The translations under genes were made by a program, and so were the position numbers. The notes beneath the pieces are model-generated. The model saw only the letters and a program-made list of their open reading frames with translations, made no database searches and was not told where the DNA came from. Of a stretch of 64,000 nucleotides of DNA, positions 5,407 through 16,414 are shown in pieces. Origin of the DNA: Nitrospirota bacterium (GTDB taxonomy: Bacteria; Nitrospirota; Nitrospiria; Nitrospirales; Nitrospiraceae); assembly GCA_004296885.1 (NCBI GenBank), contig SCVN01000016.1:186001-250000 (forward strand), given 5' to 3'. Position 1 is the first letter of the stretch; the number at the start of each line of letters is the position of its first letter.

Positions 5407-6444
<1,038 letters not shown>

Positions 6445-6464
6445 AAAATTTACCGATGGCACAC

Positions 6465-6493
6465 AGCTCTCAGCCATCAGCTAAAAGCTGAAT
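6465..6493. repeat. AGCT-type hairpin repeat between arsM and arsS
   Basis: The stretch contains repeated cagct/gctga words and a small perfect hairpin, TCAGCT (6477-6482), loop AAA, AGCTGA (6486-6491). It overlaps the upstream alternative start of arsS. Similar 'gccat..cagct' composition occurs near 31.07-31.10 and 56.38-56.43 kb, so it looks like one of several short dispersed repeat families. Confidence 0.45.
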
Positions 6494-6509: not shown

Positions 6510-7697
<1,188 letters not shown>

Positions 7698-7797
7698 AAG
7701 CTCCTCGGTACTCGACAAAGGCATTAAAGATATCTCCATGTATCAGGCGCGGGCGTTTCCCGTCAACCTTCCCCTGTAGATGCGTGTATATGCGCGT

Positions 7798-7840
7798 AGT
7801 GTACGCAAGAGATGCCTCCGATTCTGTAAGCTGGCTCACA
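7798..7840 (-). promoter_or_regulatory. CRP/FNR-type site and -10 for arsM (site 1)
   Basis: The 16-bp dyad TGTAAGCTGGCTCACA is at 7825-7840. On the minus strand the hexamer TACACT (7803-7798) lies exactly 29.5 bp from the dyad centre, the spacing of a class II CRP promoter. The predicted transcript would have a leader of about 95 nt before arsM. A perfect GCGTA-gtg-TACGC palindrome (7794-7806) covers this -10, so a second regulator, perhaps an ArsR-type repressor, could bind there; that last point is speculation. Confidence 0.7.
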
Positions 7841-7930
7841 ATGCCGGGTTGGCAGAACCTTCCGCTCCCTGTGATGATGAGTCGTTCGAAGGGCGGAATT
7901 CTTACAGTCCCGTACGGCTTCTTTTCCCCC

Positions 7931-7962
7931 TTGACTCGGTACCATGGTAGAGGGTGTAGGGT
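7931..7962 (+). promoter_or_regulatory. MerR-type promoter with over-long spacer
   Basis: TTGACT (7931-7936) and TAGGGT (7957-7962) are separated by 20 bp, the stretched spacer typical of promoters that MerR proteins untwist. A perfect palindrome TACCATGGTA (7940-7949) lies in the spacer where MerR would bind. The site is just upstream of merR and points along the merR-merF genes, so autoregulated metal induction is likely. Confidence 0.75.
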
Positions 7963-7983
7963 CCTCAATGAAGAGGTGACGCG

Positions 7984-8454
7984 ATGGCGACGGAGCACAC
8001 GATTGGGCAATTGGCAAAGGTGGTCGGGGTCAATATCCAGACGGTGCGGTACTACGAACGTCTGAAGCTGCTGGCCCCGTCCGCTCGGAAATCATCTGGT
8101 TATCGGCTGTATGGCCCTTCTGAAGTCGCTCGTCTGCGGTTCATCAAGAACGCCCAGGCGCTGGGTTTTACGCTGCAGGAGATCGGCGAACTGCTGAGCC
8201 TGCGGGTCAGGTCCACCGCCCGCTGCGGCGATGTGCAGCGGAAGGCGCAGGCTAAGTTGAAGCAAGTGGAGGCCAAGGTGCGAGACTTGCGGGCTCTGGC
8301 CAAAGCCCTGCGCGTATTGGTTCGGGCCTGCCGGGCTGGCCAGCCTACCGACCGGTGTCCGATTCTACACAGTCTCGAACGGACAAGGAGGCACAACGAT
8401 GGCAAGCCCAACGCGGCTGATCGTTTGAGAGCCGCCGGCATCGGCCAGCCGTAA
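7984..8454 (+). CDS. merR: MerR, mercury-type metal-responsive regulator
   Basis: The 156-residue protein has the MerR winged-helix N-terminus (IGQLAKVVGVNIQTVRYYE, then GYRLYG). A dimerisation helix follows, and the three cysteines that bind Hg(II) in mercury MerR are Cys81 (RCGDV), Cys116 (RACRAG) and Cys125 (DRCPIL). This spacing matches the Cys82/117/126 trio of Tn501-type MerR. It probably activates its own long-spacer promoter at 7931-7962 when Hg(II) or a similar soft metal binds. The C-terminus carries a short basic tail absent from the classical protein. merF follows after 31 bp. Confidence 0.9.
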   Translation: MATEHTIGQLAKVVGVNIQTVRYYERLKLLAPSARKSSGYRLYGPSEVARLRFIKNAQALGFTLQEIGELLSLRVRSTARCGDVQRKAQAKLKQVEAKVRDLRALAKALRVLVRACRAGQPTDRCPILHSLERTRRHNDGKPNAADRLRAAGIGQP

Positions 8455-8485
8455 TGGTGCCGGCGAAAACCAGAAGGAGGAGCCC

Positions 8486-8752
8486 TTGAACGCGAAACGC
8501 CTTGTGGTGTTCGGATTAGCAGGGACAGGCTTGACGGCCATCTGCTGTTTCACGCCGATTCTGGTAGGGCTGCTGGGGTTGGTCGGGCTGGGAGCGGTCA
8601 CCGGCTATCTGGACTATGTGTTGCTCCCTGCCCTGACCGTCTTTCTTGGTCTGGCCCTGTATGGTTTGTCGCGGCGCGATCAGGAGGATGGCTCTCTCTG
8701 CTGTAAAGGCAAAGAACAGGCAAGATTTGGAAGGACTGAACACGATGACTGA
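8486..8752 (+). CDS. merF: MerF-like mercuric ion membrane transporter
   Basis: The 88-residue protein has two membrane helices and two vicinal cysteine pairs, Cys20-Cys21 in AICCFTPIL within the first helix and Cys72-Cys73 (LCCKG) after the second. This is the MerF layout for passing Hg(II) across the inner membrane. The TTG start at 8486 is chosen because AAGGAGG sits 5 bp upstream and no ATG is in range. It overlaps the following AhpD-like gene by 8 bp. No merA, merP or merT gene lies next to it, which is unusual for a mer locus. Confidence 0.87.
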   Translation: MNAKRLVVFGLAGTGLTAICCFTPILVGLLGLVGLGAVTGYLDYVLLPALTVFLGLALYGLSRRDQEDGSLCCKGKEQARFGRTEHDD

Positions 8753-9125
8753 TGAGAGGAAAGAGATACAATCGGATGACGAACAGTTGTTCGCGGAGTT
8801 GCGCCGTCTGAGTCCGAAAGTCACCGGTGGCCTGTTGCGCATGCGGCAGGAAGCCTATCGGGACGGGACGGTTGCGGCGAAATATAAGTTGTTGGCGGCG
8901 ATGGCGATCTCCATCGCCATACGTTGTGAACCCTGCATCCGGGCCTACGTGCGGATGGCGTGCGAGAAAGGCATCACGCAAAACGAGTTGATCGAGTTTC
9001 TCGAAGTGGCCATGACCATGCAAGGCTGTCCCGGCGAAGAGTGGGCCTTGACCGCGTACCAAGCGTATAAGGAATGCGTGAGTGGCACACCGTCGAACGA
9101 GAGGTCTTCGTGCTGCGCGCCGTGA
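8745..9125 (+). CDS. AhpD/carboxymuconolactone decarboxylase-like protein with CxxC
   Basis: The 126-residue helical protein carries the AhpD-type redox pair CEPC at residues 61-64 followed by RAYVRMA, a conserved GCPGEEW segment, and an unusual C-terminal SSCC. AhpD-like proteins act as thiol peroxidases or peroxidase reductants. The ATG at 8745 overlaps the end of merF, so the two are translationally coupled in a merR-merF unit. The extra terminal Cys pair suggests metal or thiol handling rather than carboxymuconolactone decarboxylation, but the substrate is unknown. Confidence 0.8.
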   Translation: MTDERKEIQSDDEQLFAELRRLSPKVTGGLLRMRQEAYRDGTVAAKYKLLAAMAISIAIRCEPCIRAYVRMACEKGITQNELIEFLEVAMTMQGCPGEEWALTAYQAYKECVSGTPSNERSSCCAP

Positions 9126-9151
9126 ATGCCTCTTGAGGACAAATCTGCCGG

Positions 9152-9185
9152 GGCTCAGCCGCTGTCCACACTCGACGGCTGAGCC
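9152..9185. terminator. Bidirectional hairpin between convergent genes
   Basis: A perfect 10-bp stem, GGCTCAGCCG (9152-9161) with CGGCTGAGCC (9176-9185), has a 14-nt loop. It lies between the converging AhpD-like and DsrE-like genes. There is no T-run, so it may be a weak or factor-assisted terminator. Confidence 0.5.
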
Positions 9186-9200
9186 TGCTCGGAAAGGCGG

Positions 9201-9548
9201 CTAGAAGGTGATGACCTGATAGCCAGCGGAGATGAATTTTCTGAGACTTAGGTGTCGGTCGAATAAAGGGATTCCACACAGCGAGATCCTCTCCTGAACT
9301 CCGAAGGCCTGCGCACAAAGGCCACAGACTCCGGTTACGCGATCCCTCACCGCTTCAAAGAGGCCGTTCAGTGTATGGTCGGGCTTGGAGAAATCGACAG
9401 GCCACTTGACCCCGGCTCCGTCAAAGATCAGCCGGACGTCGTCCTTGGCCTCCTTGAACTCTTTCACTGCCTCGAGTGCATTGGCCACGCGCGCGAGATC
9501 CCCCTGCGACTGCGTATCCGCTAACACGAGGATCGCCACTTTCACCAT
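9201..9548 (-). CDS. DsrE-family protein
   Basis: The 115-residue protein starts with the DsrE-type strand KVAILVLADTQSQGDLARVANALEA and has a Rossmann-like alpha/beta pattern, with FDGAG after the second strand. Cysteines occur in VCGLC and SLCG in the C-terminal half, near where sulfur-carrying DsrE/TusD proteins keep their active Cys. Family members relay sulfane sulfur or bind small ligands in the cytoplasm. The start overlaps the end of the upstream small gene, so they form a two-gene operon under CRP-type site 2. Confidence 0.8.
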   Translation of the reverse strand: MVKVAILVLADTQSQGDLARVANALEAVKEFKEAKDDVRLIFDGAGVKWPVDFSKPDHTLNGLFEAVRDRVTGVCGLCAQAFGVQERISLCGIPLFDRHLSLRKFISAGYQVITF

Positions 9549-9754
9549 GGTTGGTCCTCCGTTTGAATGTGGGTGGAAAGCCGCAGGAGCGCCTGTCCGA
9601 GTGTCTCGCCGGGACGCAATTTGGCCAGACGTCGCGTCTCCGGATCACCGATGACGATCCCAGCGGTCTCATCGAGGTCGATGGTGAGCTGTTCGATGGC
9701 CCGGAGCCGCTCCTCCAGGGCCTCGTTGAGCTGGGCGATGTGAAGGCTGGTCAT
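9542..9754 (-). CDS. Small conserved-looking protein upstream of DsrE-like gene
   Basis: The 70-residue soluble protein (MTSLHIAQLNEALEERLRAI at the start) is rich in acidic and Leu residues and is probably an alpha-helical dimer. I do not recognise a family. The ATG at 9754 is preferred because GGAGG lies about 7 bp upstream; 28 further codons are open but lack a site. It overlaps the DsrE-like gene by 7 bp, so both are probably produced together. CRP-type site 2 lies 60-75 bp upstream. Confidence 0.65.
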   Translation of the reverse strand: MTSLHIAQLNEALEERLRAIEQLTIDLDETAGIVIGDPETRRLAKLRPGETLGQALLRLSTHIQTEDQPW

Positions 9755-9785
9755 AAGTGCGCCTCCGAGCCGGTTTCTAGGCAGC

Positions 9786-9829
9786 ACGATACGTGGAGGG
9801 CGACACGACCGTCTGTGGGCTGGCTTACA
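9786..9829 (-). promoter_or_regulatory. CRP/FNR-type site and -10 for the DsrE operon (site 2)
   Basis: TGTGGGCTGGCTTACA (9814-9829) matches the shared dyad with one change in the left half. On the minus strand TATCGT (9791-9786) is a plausible -10, 30.5 bp from the dyad centre, 1 bp off the class II ideal. The transcript would start about 25 bp before the 9754 start codon. Confidence 0.6.
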
Positions 9830-9857
9830 AATGGGCAACGCGATTTCTTTCGATACC

Positions 9858-9900
9858 TGTGAGATGCCTTACAGAAGGGAATCCTGCGAGCACGTATGAT
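9858..9900 (+). promoter_or_regulatory. CRP/FNR-type site and -10 for tautomerase/AhpD operon (site 3)
   Basis: TGTGAGATGCCTTACA is at 9858-9873. TATGAT (9895-9900) lies exactly 29.5 bp from its centre on the plus strand, the class II position. This divergent promoter shares the 190-bp intergenic space with site 2 and would drive the tiny CxxC gene, the tautomerase and the AhpD-like gene. Confidence 0.72.
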
Positions 9901-9944
9901 CGGGTGCAGGATCGGAAAAGCCATTCATTCAAAGGAGGTGCGCC

Positions 9945-10052
9945 ATGACCTGCGAACGATGCAACGGTCTGATGGCGAGCCAGCGGACCTGCGATGTGGG
10001 CGGTTTCCATGCATCCGGAAAGGAGGTGAGACGATGCCACTGGCACAATTGA
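9945..10052 (+). CDS. Tiny CxxC (zinc-ribbon-like) protein
   Basis: A 35-residue frame starts MTCERCNGLM, follows a strong AAAGGAGG ribosome site (7 bp spacing), and contains Cys at 3, 6, 16 and 31. It overlaps the tautomerase start by 19 bp, so its translation could feed the next gene. The MTCERCNGLM opening resembles small CxxC zinc-ribbon proteins common in Nitrospira-type genomes (from memory). It is the first frame after the CRP-type promoter at 9858-9900. It could also be only a leader; proteomics would decide. Confidence 0.5.
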   Translation: MTCERCNGLMASQRTCDVGGFHASGKEVRRCHWHN

Positions 10053-10255
10053 AAGGGCTCAGCGGGTTTTTGAGCGCGGAGCAGAAAGGCGAACTGATTC
10101 GGAAAGTCACGGACGCCATCGTGTCGGTCGAAGGCGAAGGCCTGCGACCGGTGACCTGGGTCATCATCGACGAGATTCCTTCGGGCGAATGGGGCGTGGG
10201 CGGCACACCCGTCACGACCGACGCGCTGAAGAAGATGGCCGCGCAAGGCACGTAA
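10034..10255 (+). CDS. 4-oxalocrotonate tautomerase-family protein
   Basis: The 73-residue protein begins MPLAQLKG, so Pro would become the N-terminal catalytic base after Met removal, as in the 4-OT family. The strand VTWVIIDEIPSGEWGVGG fits the conserved beta strand and Trp/Gly region of the tautomerase fold. AGGAGG lies about 7 bp before the ATG. The physiological substrate is unknown. It is followed after 37 bp by an AhpD-like gene and probably shares its promoter. Confidence 0.82.
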   Translation: MPLAQLKGLSGFLSAEQKGELIRKVTDAIVSVEGEGLRPVTWVIIDEIPSGEWGVGGTPVTTDALKKMAAQGT

Positions 10256-10292
10256 CGGATTTCCATCAACCAAGACGCGAAGGAGGATACCC

Positions 10293-10856
10293 ATGCAGTG
10301 CCAGATTCATACGAAAGAGACGGCTCCCGAGGCGTCGCGCGCGACGCTCGACGCGACGGCGAAGCAATACGGGTTTCTGCCCAATTTGTTCGGAGTGCTC
10401 GCGGAATCGCCGGCGGCGGTGCAGGCCTATGCGGCCATCAACAAGGCCCTTGAGCAGAGCACGCTGTCTCCCGTGGAACAGCAGGTGGTGGCGCTGACGG
10501 TCAGCACCACCAACGACTGCGCCTATTGTGTCGGGGCGCACTCCACGGTGGCGCACATGGTGCACATGCCCCAGGACGTGCTCGCGGCATTGCGCGAGCA
10601 GCGACCGCTACCCGACAAGAAACTCGATGCACTCCGCACCCTGGTGCTGTCGATCATGGATCATCGGGGATGGGTGCCGGAGGGGGACCTCGAGCGCTTT
10701 ACGGCGGCGGGGTACACCGGGCGACATGTTTTGGACGTCATCACGCTCCTTGCGCTCAAGACCTTGAGCAATTATGTGAATCACATCGTCCAGACGCCGC
10801 TTGATCCGCAGTTTGCGTCGCAAGCCTGGAGTGCCAAGGGCGCCTCGGCCGCCTGA
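10293..10856 (+). CDS. Alkylhydroperoxidase AhpD-like protein
   Basis: The 187-residue all-helical protein has the AhpD/CMD active-site motif NDCAYCVGAHS near residues 70-80, with the two redox cysteines and the downstream His. The family supports peroxide reduction through thiol-disulfide chemistry in the cytoplasm. The GAAGGAGG site upstream of the ATG is strong. It is last in the tautomerase operon and is followed by a GC-rich hairpin at 10867-10898, which probably ends the unit. Confidence 0.88.
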   Translation: MQCQIHTKETAPEASRATLDATAKQYGFLPNLFGVLAESPAAVQAYAAINKALEQSTLSPVEQQVVALTVSTTNDCAYCVGAHSTVAHMVHMPQDVLAALREQRPLPDKKLDALRTLVLSIMDHRGWVPEGDLERFTAAGYTGRHVLDVITLLALKTLSNYVNHIVQTPLDPQFASQAWSAKGASAA

Positions 10857-10866
10857 CCATGGGAAA

Positions 10867-10898
10867 ACCGGCTGGGACCGTCGATGGTCCCAGCCGGT
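10867..10898 (+). terminator. Strong hairpin after AhpD-like gene
   Basis: A perfect 13-bp stem, ACCGGCTGGGACC (10867-10879) and its complement (10886-10898), encloses a 6-nt loop. It starts 10 bp past the stop codon. The tract after it is only weakly T-rich. Confidence 0.7.
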
Positions 10899-10940
10899 GG
10901 GTGGCTCCTTTCGGCCGGTTCCGGCCAGTCAATGTAGGAA

Positions 10941-10983
10941 TGTAAGGCAGGTCACAGATTTGTCATTGGAGAACCGGTAGGGT
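10941..10983 (+). promoter_or_regulatory. CRP/FNR-type site and -10 for small Cys-rich genes (site 4)
   Basis: TGTAAGGCAGGTCACA is at 10941-10956, and TAGGGT (10978-10983) lies exactly 29.5 bp from its centre. The next frames are the two small Cys-containing genes at 11010 and 11083; the bufferin operon may be read through from here or have its own promoter. Confidence 0.68.
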
Positions 10984-11009
10984 CAACCATGAGACATGGA
11001 GGAATATAG

Positions 11010-11141
11010 ATGCGTCAATCTCCGTGCTCGACGACCGAGGCTAACAGGGGCCGTTGCGTGCCCCATACCAGGGAGGAAGATCATGTCGATGATGTGTGGG
11101 ATGGAGGGATGCACCCGGAAGCCAGGAATGTGCGGGCATGA
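11010..11141 (+). CDS. Possible 43-residue leader or small protein
   Basis: The frame starts MRQSPCSTTEANRGRC after a good GGAGG site with 7-bp spacing. It ends inside the next small gene in another frame, giving a 59-bp overlap. Transcription from site 4 would begin about 20 bp upstream of its ATG. I see no family. It could be a small protein or a coupling/leader frame controlling the 11083 gene. Confidence 0.35.
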   Translation: MRQSPCSTTEANRGRCVPHTREEDHVDDVWDGGMHPEARNVRA

Positions 11142-11208
11142 AAAACTGATGCTCGTCATGATGGCAATGCTGATGGTCGGCGGCGCGGCCTACTGGCTTC
11201 TGGGGTGA
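11083..11208 (+). CDS. Small Met/Cys-rich single-span membrane peptide
   Basis: The 41-residue peptide has four-sulfur-type sequence MSMMCGMEGC at the start, another CG in GMCGHEK, and a C-terminal membrane helix (LMLVMMAMLMVGGAAYWLL). Met/Cys richness suggests soft-metal binding at the membrane, which fits the mer and bufferin neighbours, but no family is recognised. GGGAGGAAG lies upstream of the ATG. It sits under CRP-type site 4. Confidence 0.6.
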   Translation: MSMMCGMEGCTRKPGMCGHEKLMLVMMAMLMVGGAAYWLLG

Positions 11209-11431
11209 GCGCGCGATGGTCGAGCGGTCCACTCGTGCCGGTCCCGGTCGCACGCGCGTCTCTGACTGAATGCGACCGTGCGGTCCAGCGGTACGCTTAT
11301 GCCATGTAGGGGGATGACGCGCCCCGCATCGCAGAAAGGAGGAATGCCCATGATCGATTCGTGAGTTCCGGTCGCGCAGTCATGTTCGGCGCCAGTGCCA
11401 TCTCGAAGAACGGATCCAAAAGGAGACTCAA

Positions 11432-11767
11432 ATGAACGCCAATACGAAAAAGAACGCGATCGTCCCCTCCGCGCTGTTGGTTGCCTTGAGCCTGGTTGGA
11501 GCCCAGACGGCGGTGGCCGAGCCGCGCATGCCGGAATTGCCCTCCGGGTGGGAAGCATGCGGAGGCGTTGCCAAGGCCGGGATGAACGATTGCGCGGTCA
11601 AGACCAGCCTCCATGCCTGCGTGGGGATGGCCAAGAAGGACGGGGAACCCGATTCCTACGTGTTCTTGCCGAAAGGGTTGTGCGCGAAGATCTCGAACGG
11701 CGCCGTGCTGGCCATCACGAAGCAGGATATGGCCGACATGAAAGCGAAGATGATGAAGAAGATGTAG
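11432..11767 (+). CDS. bufA: Bufferin precursor, DUF2282 family
   Basis: The 111-residue precursor has a signal peptide cleaved near AVA-E at residue 29. The mature part has Cys43, Cys54, Cys63 and Cys84 in the DUF2282 pattern GVAKAGMNDC. The C-terminus is Met/Lys rich. Recent work on Caulobacter bufferins (known from memory) shows DUF2282 precursors modified at Cys by a DUF692 enzyme and exported to bind copper. Gene order here, DUF2282-DUF692-DUF2063-DoxX, is the bufferin operon. AAGGAGA lies 7 bp before the ATG. Confidence 0.85.
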   Translation: MNANTKKNAIVPSALLVALSLVGAQTAVAEPRMPELPSGWEACGGVAKAGMNDCAVKTSLHACVGMAKKDGEPDSYVFLPKGLCAKISNGAVLAITKQDMADMKAKMMKKM

Positions 11768-11781
11768 CGAGGCGCGCCCCG

Positions 11782-12627
11782 ATGTCTTTTCCATTGCAGG
11801 CCCCGATCCCGGCGCAAGCCGGGATCGGGCTGCGGTCGCATCATTATCGCGAAATCCTGGAAGAGCCGCCCCCGGTCGCCTGGATGGAAACCCATCCGGA
11901 GAACTATTTCGGGGACGGGGGCGCCCCTCTTCGGATGCTTGAGCGAATCAGGACCGAGTACCCGCTGAGCTTTCACGGGGTCGGGCTGTCATTAGGCTCC
12001 ACCGATCCGATCGACCGGGCCCATCTCCGCAAACTCAAAACATTGATCGACCGCTTCGAGCCGGCCTTCGTGTCGGAGCATCTTGCCTGGAGTTCCGTGG
12101 GTGGCCGGTTCTTCAACGAGCTCTTGCCGGTCCCCTATACGCCCGAAAGCCTGGAGCACATCTGCTCGCGCGTCGAGGACGTCCAGGACGTACTGCAAAG
12201 GCCCCTGCTGATCGAGAATATCACCCGGTATCTGACGTGGCGGGATTCCACGGTGCCGGAGGGGGAGTTCATGGCCGAGATGGCCCGGGCGACCGGCTGC
12301 GGGATTTTGCTCGATCTGAACAACGCCTATGTCAACGCGATCAACTTTCATCTGGACCTCCATGATTTTCTGAACGCGATTCCGGCCCAGGCCGTCTCGG
12401 AAATCCATCTGGCCGGCTTCGACCGCTTCGGGAGACGGCTGGTCGATACCCATGGCCGCGTGGTGCACCAGAACGTGTGGGATCTGTACCAGTGGACGAT
12501 CGACCGCATCGGCCCGCGCCCGACGCTCATCGAATGGGATACCAATCTTCCGCCGCTGACGGTTCTGGTGGCGCAGGCCAAACAGGCGGAGGCCCTGCTC
12601 GGAGGCTGCCATGCCGCGGCTTCGTGA
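11782..12627 (+). CDS. bufB: DUF692 multinuclear iron oxidase (MNIO), bufferin maturase
   Basis: The 281-residue TIM-barrel-type protein shows the MNIO metal-ligand segments in order: GLRSHHYREIL, METHPENYF, SFHGVGLSLG, SEHLAW, IENI, LDLNNAYVNA, EIHLAGF, VDTHGR and IEWDTNLP. These His, Glu and Asp residues bind the multi-iron centre that modifies precursor cysteines (as in MbnB and BufB). The ATG at 11782 is 15 bp after bufA and is where family similarity begins. It overlaps bufC by 17 bp. Its likely substrate is the DUF2282 peptide encoded immediately upstream. Confidence 0.9.
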   Translation: MSFPLQAPIPAQAGIGLRSHHYREILEEPPPVAWMETHPENYFGDGGAPLRMLERIRTEYPLSFHGVGLSLGSTDPIDRAHLRKLKTLIDRFEPAFVSEHLAWSSVGGRFFNELLPVPYTPESLEHICSRVEDVQDVLQRPLLIENITRYLTWRDSTVPEGEFMAEMARATGCGILLDLNNAYVNAINFHLDLHDFLNAIPAQAVSEIHLAGFDRFGRRLVDTHGRVVHQNVWDLYQWTIDRIGPRPTLIEWDTNLPPLTVLVAQAKQAEALLGGCHAAAS

Positions 12628-13387
12628 GATTCAGCAAGGGTTTTCCGGCGCGATCGTCGAAGGACAACACCGGGCTCTTGCGGAGGCGATTGCGCCGCGA
12701 GGGTCGGCCCTGCGGAGTCTGGCCCTCTACCGCCGCCTGATTCGCGGCAATTATACGCGGGTCCTGCAGGTGACCTATCCGGTCTTGCATCGGTTCGTCG
12801 GTGAACGATATTTCGGAATCCTCGCGCGAGGGTACTTCAAGGCGCATCCCTCGACCAGCGGCGATCTGTTTCCCTACGGGCGCCATCTGCCCGCGTTTCT
12901 GACCGCCTTGCAGGTGGCTCCTCTGTTGGCGGAACTGGCGCGGCTGGAATGGGCCTGCCATGAGGTCCATCAGGCGGCCGATGCCCCCTGGCTGTCCAAG
13001 GATCAGATCCTGGCCATCGCGTCGGCCGATCCGTCGCAAGTGACGGTCCATGTTCATGCGGCTGCGCGCCTGGTGCGCGTCCCCTTTCCGGTGCATCGTG
13101 TCTGGCTGGCGCTGCAACCGGATGCGCCGCCCCACGAAGTCGTTGACCTGCCGCTTCCGGACGAAGAGACCGGTCTGCTGGTGACGCGGGGGGAGGGGAG
13201 GATTTGGGTGACGCCCCTGGACGCGCGTGATTACCTCCTGATCGAGGCCATGGTACAGGGAAAGACCTTGGCCGAAGTTGAACGGGTGGCGATCGAATCT
13301 CAGCCGGAGTTCGATTTCCAACGGTTCTGGCCCACCGTACTGAATCTGCACGTGATCAGCGATTTTTCCGTGAAGGAGACGTTATGA
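12611..13387 (+). CDS. bufC: DUF2063 bufferin maturation partner
   Basis: The 258-residue protein starts with the DUF2063 helical domain (LREIQQGFSGAI, LYRRLIRGNYTRVLQVTYPVL) and then a less conserved second domain. In bufferin and related MNIO clusters this protein presents the precursor to the oxidase. It overlaps bufB at its start and the DoxX gene by 4 bp at its end, so all four genes are tightly coupled. The product is soluble, with no signal peptide. Confidence 0.85.
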   Translation: MPRLREIQQGFSGAIVEGQHRALAEAIAPRGSALRSLALYRRLIRGNYTRVLQVTYPVLHRFVGERYFGILARGYFKAHPSTSGDLFPYGRHLPAFLTALQVAPLLAELARLEWACHEVHQAADAPWLSKDQILAIASADPSQVTVHVHAAARLVRVPFPVHRVWLALQPDAPPHEVVDLPLPDEETGLLVTRGEGRIWVTPLDARDYLLIEAMVQGKTLAEVERVAIESQPEFDFQRFWPTVLNLHVISDFSVKETL

Positions 13388-13893
13388 CGCGTGAGGCCAG
13401 TTTTCTTAGGTGCGTGGTGCCTTCCGCAGTCTCCGCCTATCGGTGGCTTGTCTGGGGGGTGGAGTCGCTGCTGCCGGTGTTCGACCTGACCGTGCGTCTG
13501 TATCTTGCCCACATCTTCTGGACAGGCGGCATGGTCAAAATCTCCAGTTGGATGTCGACGGTGATGCTCTTTACCTTCGTCTACGACGTGCCGCTCCTGC
13601 CCCCCGAACTCGCCGCCTATGCGGCCACCGCCGTCGAGTTGGGCGGATCGTTCCTGCTGGCGATCGGCCTGGCCGGACGGTGGGCGGCCCTGTCGCTCTT
13701 CGGGCTCAATATCGTCGCGTCGATCTCATACGGACAGTTGTCCGAGGCCGCCTTACAGGAGGCGTTCTATTGGGGGCTGTTCTTCCTCTACTTCGTCCTG
13801 CACGGGCCGGGGCCGCTCTCCGCCGACGCCCTGTTGCGGCATCTGATTCAGCGACGGAAGTTGACAGGCAGTGCCGAGGTCAATGTCCTCTGA
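13384..13893 (+). CDS. DoxX-family membrane protein of the bufferin operon
   Basis: The 169-residue protein has about four membrane helices and DoxX-type sequence: LYLAHIFWTGGMVKISSW, then AAYAATAVELGGSFLLAIGL. DoxX proteins often accompany DUF2282-DUF692-DUF2063 sets. Their role is unknown, and could be redox or copper handling at the membrane. The ATG overlaps the bufC stop codon. The gene ends 5 bp before the convergent gene at 13899. Confidence 0.85.
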   Translation: MTREASFLRCVVPSAVSAYRWLVWGVESLLPVFDLTVRLYLAHIFWTGGMVKISSWMSTVMLFTFVYDVPLLPPELAAYAATAVELGGSFLLAIGLAGRWAALSLFGLNIVASISYGQLSEAALQEAFYWGLFFLYFVLHGPGPLSADALLRHLIQRRKLTGSAEVNVL

Positions 13894-13898
13894 CGCGA

Positions 13899-15290
13899 CT
13901 ACTTGGACAGAGAAAAGTCATCTCGCGCATCCTGGGAAACCGTCAGAATGACATGGTTCAACAAGGCGTGACGCTCGTAGGCGAGCAGATAGAGGTGCAG
14001 CGTGGATGGATCGTCTGAGTCCCAGTGCAGCAGGGGGCCGTCCACGCCGACCGCGTGGTGATCGATCCAGCGGTCCTGCGTGTCCAGATGAAACCCATAA
14101 AACGGTCGCTGGAGTGGGGACTCGGCGCGCAAGTCTTCGTATGACTCGAAGAAGCTCGGGTTCCCGATCCCCATAGGGACCTGCCAGCCCCGTTCGTAGT
14201 GATCTGGAGAGGCGGTGGGGAGCGAGCGAAGATCCAGGCCGCCGAAGATCAGGCGGGTTGGCCCCCCCGTGCGGCTGCTCTTGAAGGCCAGCTCGATTTC
14301 GTACAGTGCACGGGGACCAGCCGGCGCTCGCACCTGGCGAAGCGTGGCTCCCGTCAGCTCGGCCAGGTAGTGAAGTTGCGTGTCCCGTGGATGGGCGACG
14401 GAATAGCGGCCAGGCGGAATGAAGCTCGCGAATTGAACCGGCTGGCGGTACCAATCCCGATAGGTGTAGACGGGAGGAGCCAACACGTTCTTTCGCTTGA
14501 GCCGTTGCTCGCTCCTCCAGAGGGGCGCTTCGTTCCATCGTGCGCTGGCGTTCAGCGCCCACTCTCGTTCAACGGTCCGAATCAGACTGAGTCGGATCGG
14601 CGTACCGGCTGGATCGACCCAGTGTTCGAGCGACCACCAATGATCCCAGTAGGACAGACCATTCACGCGTTCGAAGAGGTCCTTGTAAAGACCCAAAGGA
14701 AATGTGAACCAGACATGCTCGTACACCCGCTCCTGTCCCTCCTCGACGGTGAACAGCAGCAGCTCCCACAGTCCGGCATTCAGGCAGTTCCGGGCAAGGT
14801 CCACACGGCTGAACGAACGTTGTTCGAAGCCGTCCCCTCCCTCATGGAGACGGACATGGGGAGAGTCGCGTCGAAAGCTCACCTGCTGACGATTCCACTC
14901 GCGGTCGATCAGCCCCACCTTCATGAGGTCGGAATCCGCCTTGACCCAGGTCGGCACAGCGGCGACGAAGTGTGCCAGCTCCACCTCCGGCAACTCGATG
15001 GTGGTCGCATGGCCGGAGCTTGGCTCAAGGAGCAAGCGAAACCGCGTGTCTCCGAGCCGTTGGATATGCAGTGCTCGGTGAGGATAATTCCCGAAGGCCT
15101 GGCTCCGCTCTTCGGGGTCCTCTGGATACTCGGCGTTGCTGAAAGCCCTGAGCGTGACGGTTTGTTCCGGGGCATTGTCGTAACGAAGTTGAAACCACAC
15201 GACGCCACCGAGTATCGCGGCGATCAGTAGAATCGAGAGGCCCGTGCCAAGGTATCCTCTGAAGCGTACTCGCGCTCTCGATCTTGTCAT
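13899..15290 (-). CDS. Unknown 463-residue protein with N-terminal membrane anchor
   Basis: The protein has one N-terminal hydrophobic helix at about residues 14-33 and then a large, probably extracytoplasmic, Trp/Arg-rich domain (YEHVWFTFPLGLYKDLF, WWSLEHWVDP). I do not recognise a family and see no catalytic motif. It is convergent with the bufferin operon and divergent from the CRP-type regulator across a 91-bp gap. No partner gene on its strand is near. Coding composition is normal, so it looks like a real native gene. Confidence 0.6.
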   Translation of the reverse strand: MTRSRARVRFRGYLGTGLSILLIAAILGGVVWFQLRYDNAPEQTVTLRAFSNAEYPEDPEERSQAFGNYPHRALHIQRLGDTRFRLLLEPSSGHATTIELPEVELAHFVAAVPTWVKADSDLMKVGLIDREWNRQQVSFRRDSPHVRLHEGGDGFEQRSFSRVDLARNCLNAGLWELLLFTVEEGQERVYEHVWFTFPLGLYKDLFERVNGLSYWDHWWSLEHWVDPAGTPIRLSLIRTVEREWALNASARWNEAPLWRSEQRLKRKNVLAPPVYTYRDWYRQPVQFASFIPPGRYSVAHPRDTQLHYLAELTGATLRQVRAPAGPRALYEIELAFKSSRTGGPTRLIFGGLDLRSLPTASPDHYERGWQVPMGIGNPSFFESYEDLRAESPLQRPFYGFHLDTQDRWIDHHAVGVDGPLLHWDSDDPSTLHLYLLAYERHALLNHVILTVSQDARDDFSLSK

Positions 15291-15381
15291 TCTGACTCCG
15301 TGCCGCGATCATGCTCGATGACGTTGCGTTCCGTGTCTTGCGTGCAGTAGGCTACCCCAAACAATTCTCCGGAGCAACGGC

Positions 15382-16083
15382 ATGGCCGAGAACAACCCCT
15401 CATCGAGCAAGCTCTGGTACCTGAAGCATATCCGCCTCTTCTCCGGCCTGAGCCAGGTCGAAATGCAGGAAATGGAACGGATCACCCGGATGGAGGAGGT
15501 CAAGAAACGTCAACCGTTGTATCTCCCGGGCGATCCGAGCAGCAATGTCTACCTGCTCAAGCAAGGACGGGTCAAAATCGCCAATACCGCTCCCAGCGGG
15601 AAAGAAGTCACCTTCGACATCCTGGAACCGGGAGAAGTATTCGGAGAGCTTGACGTCTTGGACGATTCGCCGCGCACGACGACCGCCGAAGCGCTCGATG
15701 ACACGCTGATCTGCGTCATCCGTCGGGAAGACTTCGAGCGCTATCTGAGCCGGCATCCGAACCTCACGGTGCAGTTGACCAAGCTCATCGGTCTCCGGCT
15801 CAGGAAGATCCAAAGTCGAGTGGAGGATTTGGTCTTCCGGGATGTCCCGGCCCGTCTCGCCCATCTCCTGTTCGAATTGAGCAAGACGGACGGGGATTCG
15901 GATGGCTCCGGCATCCGAATCCGGGCCAAGCTCACGCACCAGGAGATGGCGAACCTGATCGGATGCAGCCGCGAGACGGTCAGTGCGACCCTCGGCCTGT
16001 TTCGGGAGGAGGGGCTTATTCGGATGGCTGGCCGGTCCATCACGATCGTCGACGTCCAGCGGCTGTCCCAACGTCTCGCCTAA
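15382..16083 (+). CDS. CRP/FNR-family transcriptional regulator
   Basis: The 233-residue protein has an N-terminal cyclic-nucleotide-binding fold with FGELDVLDDSPRTTTAEAL in the ligand pocket position, a long dimer helix and a C-terminal winged helix. The recognition helix GCSRETVSATL keeps the Arg-Glu-Thr of CRP, which reads TGTGA half-sites. It has no FNR-type Cys cluster, so an Fe-S sensor is unlikely; the ligand is unknown. Five TGTRAG-N4-CTYACA dyads lie within 8 kb, and this protein is the obvious candidate to bind them. No such dyad precedes its own gene. Confidence 0.9.
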   Translation: MAENNPSSSKLWYLKHIRLFSGLSQVEMQEMERITRMEEVKKRQPLYLPGDPSSNVYLLKQGRVKIANTAPSGKEVTFDILEPGEVFGELDVLDDSPRTTTAEALDDTLICVIRREDFERYLSRHPNLTVQLTKLIGLRLRKIQSRVEDLVFRDVPARLAHLLFELSKTDGDSDGSGIRIRAKLTHQEMANLIGCSRETVSATLGLFREEGLIRMAGRSITIVDVQRLSQRLA

Positions 16084-16365
16084 TCAGAGCGGCGAGTGTT
16101 CACTCGACGACGACCCAGGCTCGTGCTGCATCCGGTCACGGAGCAGGCGCACCAGCCACTCTCTTCTGGGTACGCCGACCACCAGCAGGTTCCCGTCCAG
16201 CACAAAAGCCGGGAGCACGACGATCCCCAACGTCCGTGCCCGTTCCCGGTCATCGACCACCCGGACTTGTAGGCCGGGAAATGCCTCTTGGATCTGGTCG
16301 CCCAATCCGAACGCCGACAGTTCGGAGAGGCACCCACGGTGAACGAAGATTTCCAATACCGCCAT
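16084..16365 (-). CDS. Thioredoxin-fold small protein
   Basis: The 93-residue protein reads as a minimal thioredoxin fold: strand VLEIFVHRGCL, helix, strand LQVRVVDD, then VVLPAFVLDGNLLVVG with the cis-Pro of thioredoxins. Only one Cys (residue 11) remains where a CxxC would be, so it may act as a monothiol protein or a glutaredoxin-like adaptor. I chose the ATG at 16365, where the fold begins. It lies 34 bp downstream of CRP-type site 5, and its gene is convergent with the CRP-like regulator. Confidence 0.72.
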   Translation of the reverse strand: MAVLEIFVHRGCLSELSAFGLGDQIQEAFPGLQVRVVDDRERARTLGIVVLPAFVLDGNLLVVGVPRREWLVRLLRDRMQHEPGSSSSEHSPL

Positions 16366-16371
16366 GGTGCG

Positions 16372-16414
16372 ATGATAAGGGAAGGCTCCGGCGAACTCTG
16401 TGAGTTGGCTTACA
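16372..16414 (-). promoter_or_regulatory. CRP/FNR-type site and -10 for thioredoxin-fold gene (site 5)
   Basis: TGTGAGTTGGCTTACA is at 16399-16414, and TATCAT (minus strand, 16377-16372) lies exactly 29.5 bp from its centre. The hexamer is about 7 bp upstream of the start codon, so the transcript would be almost leaderless. Confidence 0.68.

Follow-up and report, generated by a model that had tools for sequence, protein, structure and literature searches.

A predicted class II CRP/FNR-type regulon, with its candidate local regulator, in the Nitrospira family

In the class II promoter arrangement, a regulator dimer sits on a site whose centre lies 41.5 bp ahead of the transcription start and touches RNA polymerase (PMC5957442). 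We analyzed a 64,000-nucleotide stretch of the genome of a nitrite-oxidising-type Nitrospirota bacterium from the Nitrospira family (GenBank assembly GCA_004296885.1, contig SCVN01000016.1, positions 186,001 to 250,000; hereafter, the window), in which five 16-bp dyads of the form TGTRAG-N4-CTYACA and a gene for a CRP/FNR-family protein (15382-16083) share a cluster of 8.6 kb. The sequence makes it very likely that these sites constitute a single regulon of five promoters under the control of the 15382-16083 protein. As at the class II promoters of Escherichia coli CRP, the half-sites are of the TGTGA type, the recognition residues are R-E, and the predicted centre of the site lies at -41.5 (PMC5957442). 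In contrast to the case of E. coli CRP, however, the putative regulon is dedicated and local rather than global. The CRP of Mycobacterium tuberculosis (Rv3676) and GlxR of Corynebacterium glutamicum, both of which are cyclic AMP (cAMP)-binding, global regulators, represent the closest solved structures (~30% identity, E ~1e-39, Z 26-27); the regulator in the window shares with them the GEL...PRT phosphate cassette but, unlike either, has Ile at the C-helix position of the cAMP-contacting Thr.

The second relevant group of described systems is the bufferin clusters, which encode copper-binding ribosomally synthesized and post-translationally modified peptides (RiPPs) and are defined by the four-gene core DUF2282-MNIO-DUF2063-DoxX; this core is complete in the window, at 11432-13893. 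According to the accessible part of a survey of these clusters, sigma/anti-sigma genes can accompany Buf1 clusters (PMC12452194). Unlike the described Buf1 clusters, the bufferin operon analyzed here is preceded by a CRP/FNR-type site, and Nitrospirota are not mentioned in that part of the survey text. For Nitrospira itself, the accessible part of a study of a metagenome-assembled genome (MAG) reports CRP/FNR regulators (NnrR/FNR) that were inferred with NnrR matrices for the N-oxide response; these belong to the same CRP/FNR family, and neither the present motif nor its targets are mentioned in that part (PMC8510549). In the open-licence literature, we found no report of this motif, of this regulon, or of CRP/FNR control of bufferins. 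Thus, while the type of switch, class II activation by a CRP/FNR protein, is well known, the circuit itself appears to be undescribed, and the same predicted circuit is found across dozens of Nitrospira-family relatives. Nitrospira are major nitrifiers that are hard to manipulate genetically and for which few regulons are defined; here, a motif, a candidate regulator and a list of targets are in hand, ready for testing, and bufferin and arsenosugar-type genes are tied to one putative CRP/FNR switch.

All five dyads proposed in the initial annotation of this DNA are present. Operator 1 (7825-7840, minus strand, where it reads TGTGAGCCAGCTTACA) is the predicted class II site for arsM; operator 2 (9814-9829, minus strand) is the predicted driver of the leftward DsrE operon; operator 3 (9858-9873, plus strand), that of the CxxC peptide-tautomerase-AhpD operon; operator 4 (10941-10956, plus strand), that of the Cys-rich peptide and bufferin operon; and operator 5 (16399-16414, minus strand), that of the thioredoxin-fold gene. 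The match to the consensus was correctly described except that two sites deviate from it, not one: operators 2 (TGTGGG...) and 4 (...GTCACA) each contain a single mismatch. The proposed spacing also stands. The -10-like hexamers TACACT (7798-7803, minus strand, read 7803-7798), TATGAT (9895-9900, plus strand), TAGGGT (10978-10983, plus strand) and TATCAT (16372-16377, minus strand, read 16377-16372) begin 29.5 bp from the centres of operators 1, 3, 4 and 5, respectively, and TATCGT (9786-9791, minus strand, read 9791-9786) begins 30.5 bp from the centre of operator 2, a distance that forms the second peak in relatives. With TANNNT at 0.28% of the window positions, the probability that at least four of five such hexamers begin at exactly 29.5 bp is ~3e-10. 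Operators 2 and 3 sit back to back at a distance of 44 bp and face two divergent operons; outward pairs with a spacing of 42-54 bp were found again in 12 other loci.

The same geometry emerges from relatives, for which 60 stretches were taken around regulator genes and site-bearing contigs, and the offset of the -10 hexamer was scored without presupposing it. For the exact sites in these loci (180 orientations), TANNNT starts at 29.5 bp in 55 cases and at 30.5 bp in 8, and at any other offset in 0-3, save for a local group of 8 at 55.5 bp; one-mismatch sites yield 50 and 17 cases at 29.5 and 30.5 bp. The sequences of both the window and the relatives accordingly contain the class II layout (site at -41.5, that is, 29.5 bp before the -10). 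The resulting promoter profile is AA-C-TGTRAG-CYGS-CTCACAGA-N19-TANNRT-G. The base G-33 is conserved in 99% of the promoters and the symmetric position in the opposite arm is C in only 48%, so that G-33 appears to be specific to the promoter rather than to the operator; judging from this asymmetry, the downstream arm has merged with the remnant of a -35 element (nnGAnn).

A site in this position could equally block RNA polymerase, and it is conceivable that the regulator represses from the -41.5 sites, with the dimer occluding the -35 region until a ligand relieves the block. Compatible with autorepression, or with a different class of promoter, are the regions upstream of the regulator gene in many relatives, where a site lies ~105-230 bp (rarely 450 bp) away and, as a rule, no -10 faces the gene at 29.5 bp. 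Part of these sites are class II sites of a divergent operon, and the arrangement suggests autoregulation of another type. We nevertheless consider repression at the five promoters unlikely: there is no TTGACA, and only G-33 and A-32 of the -35 element are left, which suggests dependence on an activator, and the exact 29.5-bp spacing is a hallmark of class II activation (PMC5957442 for -41.5), whereas repression tolerates many positions. Three features favour activation: a real -35 element is lacking, the spacing is fixed, and one layout is widely used.

The protein to which we assign this activation (15382-16083, plus strand) consists of the cNMP_binding and HTH_Crp_2 domains, with PF00027, PF13545 and PF00325 all above the respective cut-offs. 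Its AlphaFold model (predicted local distance difference test score 86.6) matches the CRP fold, with the CRP of M. tuberculosis as its nearest structure (Z 27.0, 225 residues, 2.5 A). The recognition helix reads SRETVS, with the R-E-T residues that had been ascribed to it; R197 and E198, which correspond to R180 and E181 of E. coli CRP, do not vary among the 43 orthologue sequences, and the half-site of the motif is TGTRA. Equally invariant, and different from E. coli CRP, is the Ser at the position of G184. Of the E. coli CRP residues in contact with cAMP (G71, E72, R82, S83, R123, T127 and S128), three never vary (G71, E72 and R123) and R82 is present in 42 of the 43 sequences, whereas the adenine contacts T127 and S128 are replaced by I and Q in 40 or more. 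The retention of the phosphate cassette along with the loss of the adenine contacts points to a ligand that is nucleotide-like but other than cAMP, or to no ligand at all. The protein contains only two Cys residues (111 and 195), neither of them in an N-terminal cluster such as carries the [4Fe-4S] centre in the FNR subgroup, and hence is not an FNR-type Fe-S sensor.

The assignment of the sites to this particular protein draws on a comparison of 175 Nitrospira-family genomes, in which the regulator was scored as present at E <= 1e-35. It was found in 41 of the 175; orthologues with more than 70% identity come from records labelled Nitrospira or Nitrospira-related MAGs. The number of exact dyads per genome is 3.98 in the genomes with the regulator and 0.37 in those without it, compared to 0.61 and 0.43 for the reversed controls. 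A 43-bp pattern that covers the whole promoter matches 145 times over all the genomes, against 2 matches for its reversed control, and is present in 37 of the 41 regulator-positive and 12 of the 134 regulator-negative genomes (odds ratio 94); this association extends over many genera, within which it is patchy. The arsM gene is nearly universal (152 of the 175 genomes), so that loci from genomes with and without the regulator can be compared on one target. When only loci with an identifiable arsM start region are counted, a site with its -10 precedes the gene, ~190-216 bp ahead of a fixed motif of arsM, in 8 of 10 regulator-positive but only 1 of 15 regulator-negative loci; of the two regulator-positive loci without it, at least one (G038) represents a second copy of arsM, and the sister copy does have the site. 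Close homologues of the bufferin MNIO protein were detected in 31 genomes, 29 of which also encode the regulator. The chromosome of N. moscoviensis (G058) contains all eight of its exact sites and three copies of the regulator within ~112 kb (3.91-4.02 Mb), which suggests that this region is an accessory island; the third regulator copy in strain NSP M-1 is 59% identical. The family-wide co-occurrence and the promoter profile jointly support the original proposals of a single regulon and of a regulator encoded inside it.

Members of the CRP/FNR family can share motifs, and two further full-length proteins of this family are encoded in the same genome (C23:296807-297529 and C18:3427-4146), such that the sites might belong to one of these paralogues, with the local gene a bystander. 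We consider this very improbable and rejected both candidates, given that they carry V-E-T in place of R-E-T at the recognition helix, and so have no Arg for reading TGTGA, and that they do not track the promoters among the regulator-negative genomes (P 0.76 and 0.25); furthermore, the paralogues occur in many genomes that lack the sites.

With two mismatches allowed, the number of dyads in the window is unremarkable (5 against 3.1 expected). The picture is different for better matches across the 3.26-Mb genome: the exact motif occurs three times in total, each time inside the 8.6-kb cluster, which also contains 5 of the 9 sites that differ from it in no more than one position, compared to 5 matches of the reversed control pattern in the entire genome (Poisson P of the clustering ~1e-12). 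The initial annotation had named many equally good matches elsewhere as evidence that would count against the regulon; since the exact sites and five of the nine near-exact ones lie in the cluster, the genome-wide search does not refute it. Although 16-bp dyads are common when two mismatches are allowed, and in some genomes the sites that deviate in one position at most are no more numerous than those of the control, the chance that the dyads are a dispersed palindromic repeat, similar to repetitive extragenic palindromes, or random occurrences is negligible, in view of the fixed -10 position, on which this explanation was rejected, the confinement of the sites to clusters ahead of recurrent operons and their correlation with one gene.

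A feature that the initial annotation overlooked is the position of the start codon. In the window, the ATG of the thioredoxin-fold gene (16084-16365, minus strand) lies 41.5 bp from the centre of operator 5, exactly at the predicted +1. The protein opens directly with its first beta strand (MARLDILVHGGC...), so that this ATG must be the start of the gene, implying that the mRNA is leaderless if the +1 is as predicted. Among 138 de-duplicated promoters, an ATG is located exactly 6 nt past the -10 in 45, and every other offset (3-13 tested) accounts for 5 at most. By operon, the ATG coincides with the predicted +1 in 18 of 19 thioredoxin-fold promoters (the last one is off by one base) and 19 of 21 VTT promoters, and in none of the 11 arsM and 23 bufferin promoters. 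An ATG at +1 offers a clean case for the study of leaderless translation in this phylum. The VTT (TVP38-like)-pyridine nucleotide-disulfide oxidoreductase-DUF3047 operon is a major member of the regulon in relatives (L130, L134, L101 and others) and is not a target in the window. For the VTT protein, we make no claim of an N-terminal extension translated from a leaderless mRNA, because the +1 ATG is kept but its frame is not, stopping early or differing in several genomes; a Shine-Dalgarno-like stretch lies ahead of an internal ATG.

In the mechanism that we propose, the 15382-16083 product would be a homodimeric activator of the CRP/FNR family that is specific to the Nitrospira family. The dimer would bind TGTRAG-N4-CTYACA centred at -41.5 and act as a class II activator of sigma70-type RNA polymerase at the promoters of arsM-arsS, the DsrE operon, the CxxC peptide/tautomerase/AhpD operon, the Cys-rich peptide/bufferin operon, and the thioredoxin-fold gene. 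Of the two half-sites, the downstream one (CACAGA) would overlap the -35 position, where a degenerate -35 element retains G-33 and A-32, and at the thioredoxin-fold promoter, the transcript would begin on the A of the ATG and be translated as a leaderless mRNA. Sites, spacing, clustering, co-occurrence and the ATG position are read directly from the sequence, and from these we infer binding, activation rather than repression, the transcription starts and the signal. The combination of a family-specific dimeric activator, class II action at five promoters and a leaderless thioredoxin-fold mRNA appears highly probable. If it is correct, starts and targets could be predicted from the promoter position alone across dozens of uncultured relatives. 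As to the signal, something produced under thiophilic metal(loid) or thiol/redox stress seems most likely, and it might be perceived via a nucleotide-like ligand other than cAMP. Only tentatively can the scheme be extended to a lineage-specific regulator that senses such stress through a non-cAMP ligand and switches a patchily inherited defence cluster of arsenosugar enzymes, bufferin, and disulfide and thioredoxin proteins, with activator site, -10 and start codon locked in a fixed spacing and key mRNAs leaderless.

Several observations weigh against this interpretation. Twelve regulator-negative genomes bear the promoter, and although several of these are fragmented or incomplete, G156 and G151 (99% complete) are not. 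The genomes are kin, so that P values overstate the independence of the observations, and the loci behind the promoter logo were picked near the regulator gene. The regulator orthologues have not conserved the residues of activating region 2 (AR2) of E. coli CRP, and from AR3 they share only E58. In the window genome, the 600 bp upstream of the regulator gene contain no site although most relatives have one, and direct autoregulation in this genome was rejected for that reason. Finally, transcription from the promoter at 10941 through a 223-bp gap into the bufferin genes is assumed.

Of the genes behind the five sites, the initial annotation had overlooked the bufferin operon that follows operator 4. 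Operator 1 precedes an arsM-type arsenite methyltransferase (6510-7739, minus strand; Pfam/NCBIfam, under the NCBIfam cut-off for PRK11873) and arsS, an arsenosugar biosynthesis radical SAM protein (5407-6477, minus strand; TIGR04167, 446 bits, above the cut-off). The DsrE operon starts with a gene for a 70-aa protein without a Pfam match (9542-9754, minus strand), followed by the DsrE/DsrF-like protein (9201-9548, minus strand; Pfam). On the plus strand, operator 3 is followed by a 35-aa CxxC peptide (9945-10052), a short form of a 70-aa Cys-rich protein of relatives (cluster c14) and possibly decayed in this genome, a tautomerase (10034-10255; Pfam) and an AhpD/CMD peroxidase-related protein (10293-10856; Pfam/NCBIfam). 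Operator 4 is followed, on the same strand, by a 41-aa Cys-rich peptide (11083-11208) that combines MSMMCGMEGCTRKPGMCGHEK with a transmembrane (TM) stretch and is kept in 8 relative genomes beside bufferin operons (consensus MSMMCxMxGCTxKxGMCGHEK + TM); a Pfam search with one relative's copy matched no family, and it is possibly an accessory metal-binding peptide. Next come the bufferin-1 precursor (DUF2282; 11432-11767; Pfam/NCBIfam), the MNIO bufferin maturase BufB (11782-12627; NF050167, 368 bits against a cut-off of 310), the MNIO partner protein (DUF2063; 12611-13387; Pfam/NCBIfam) and the DoxX protein (13384-13893; Pfam/NCBIfam). The thioredoxin-fold protein behind operator 5 gives a weak match to TIGR00411. 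The label of thiol/metal stress originally attached to the regulon is based on annotation and fits the gene content, namely arsM/arsS, the bufferin operon, and the thioredoxin-fold, DsrE and AhpD proteins, from which a metal/thiol function can reasonably be considered probable.

Adjoining the regulator gene is a gene for a 463-aa protein (13899-15290, minus strand) that matches nothing in Pfam or NCBIfam and nothing significantly in the PDB. Between the operons of the regulon lies a merR-merF-CMD operon (7984-9125) that has no CRP-type site and is preceded by a MerR-like promoter at 7930-7970 (ttgact, a long spacer, taggg).

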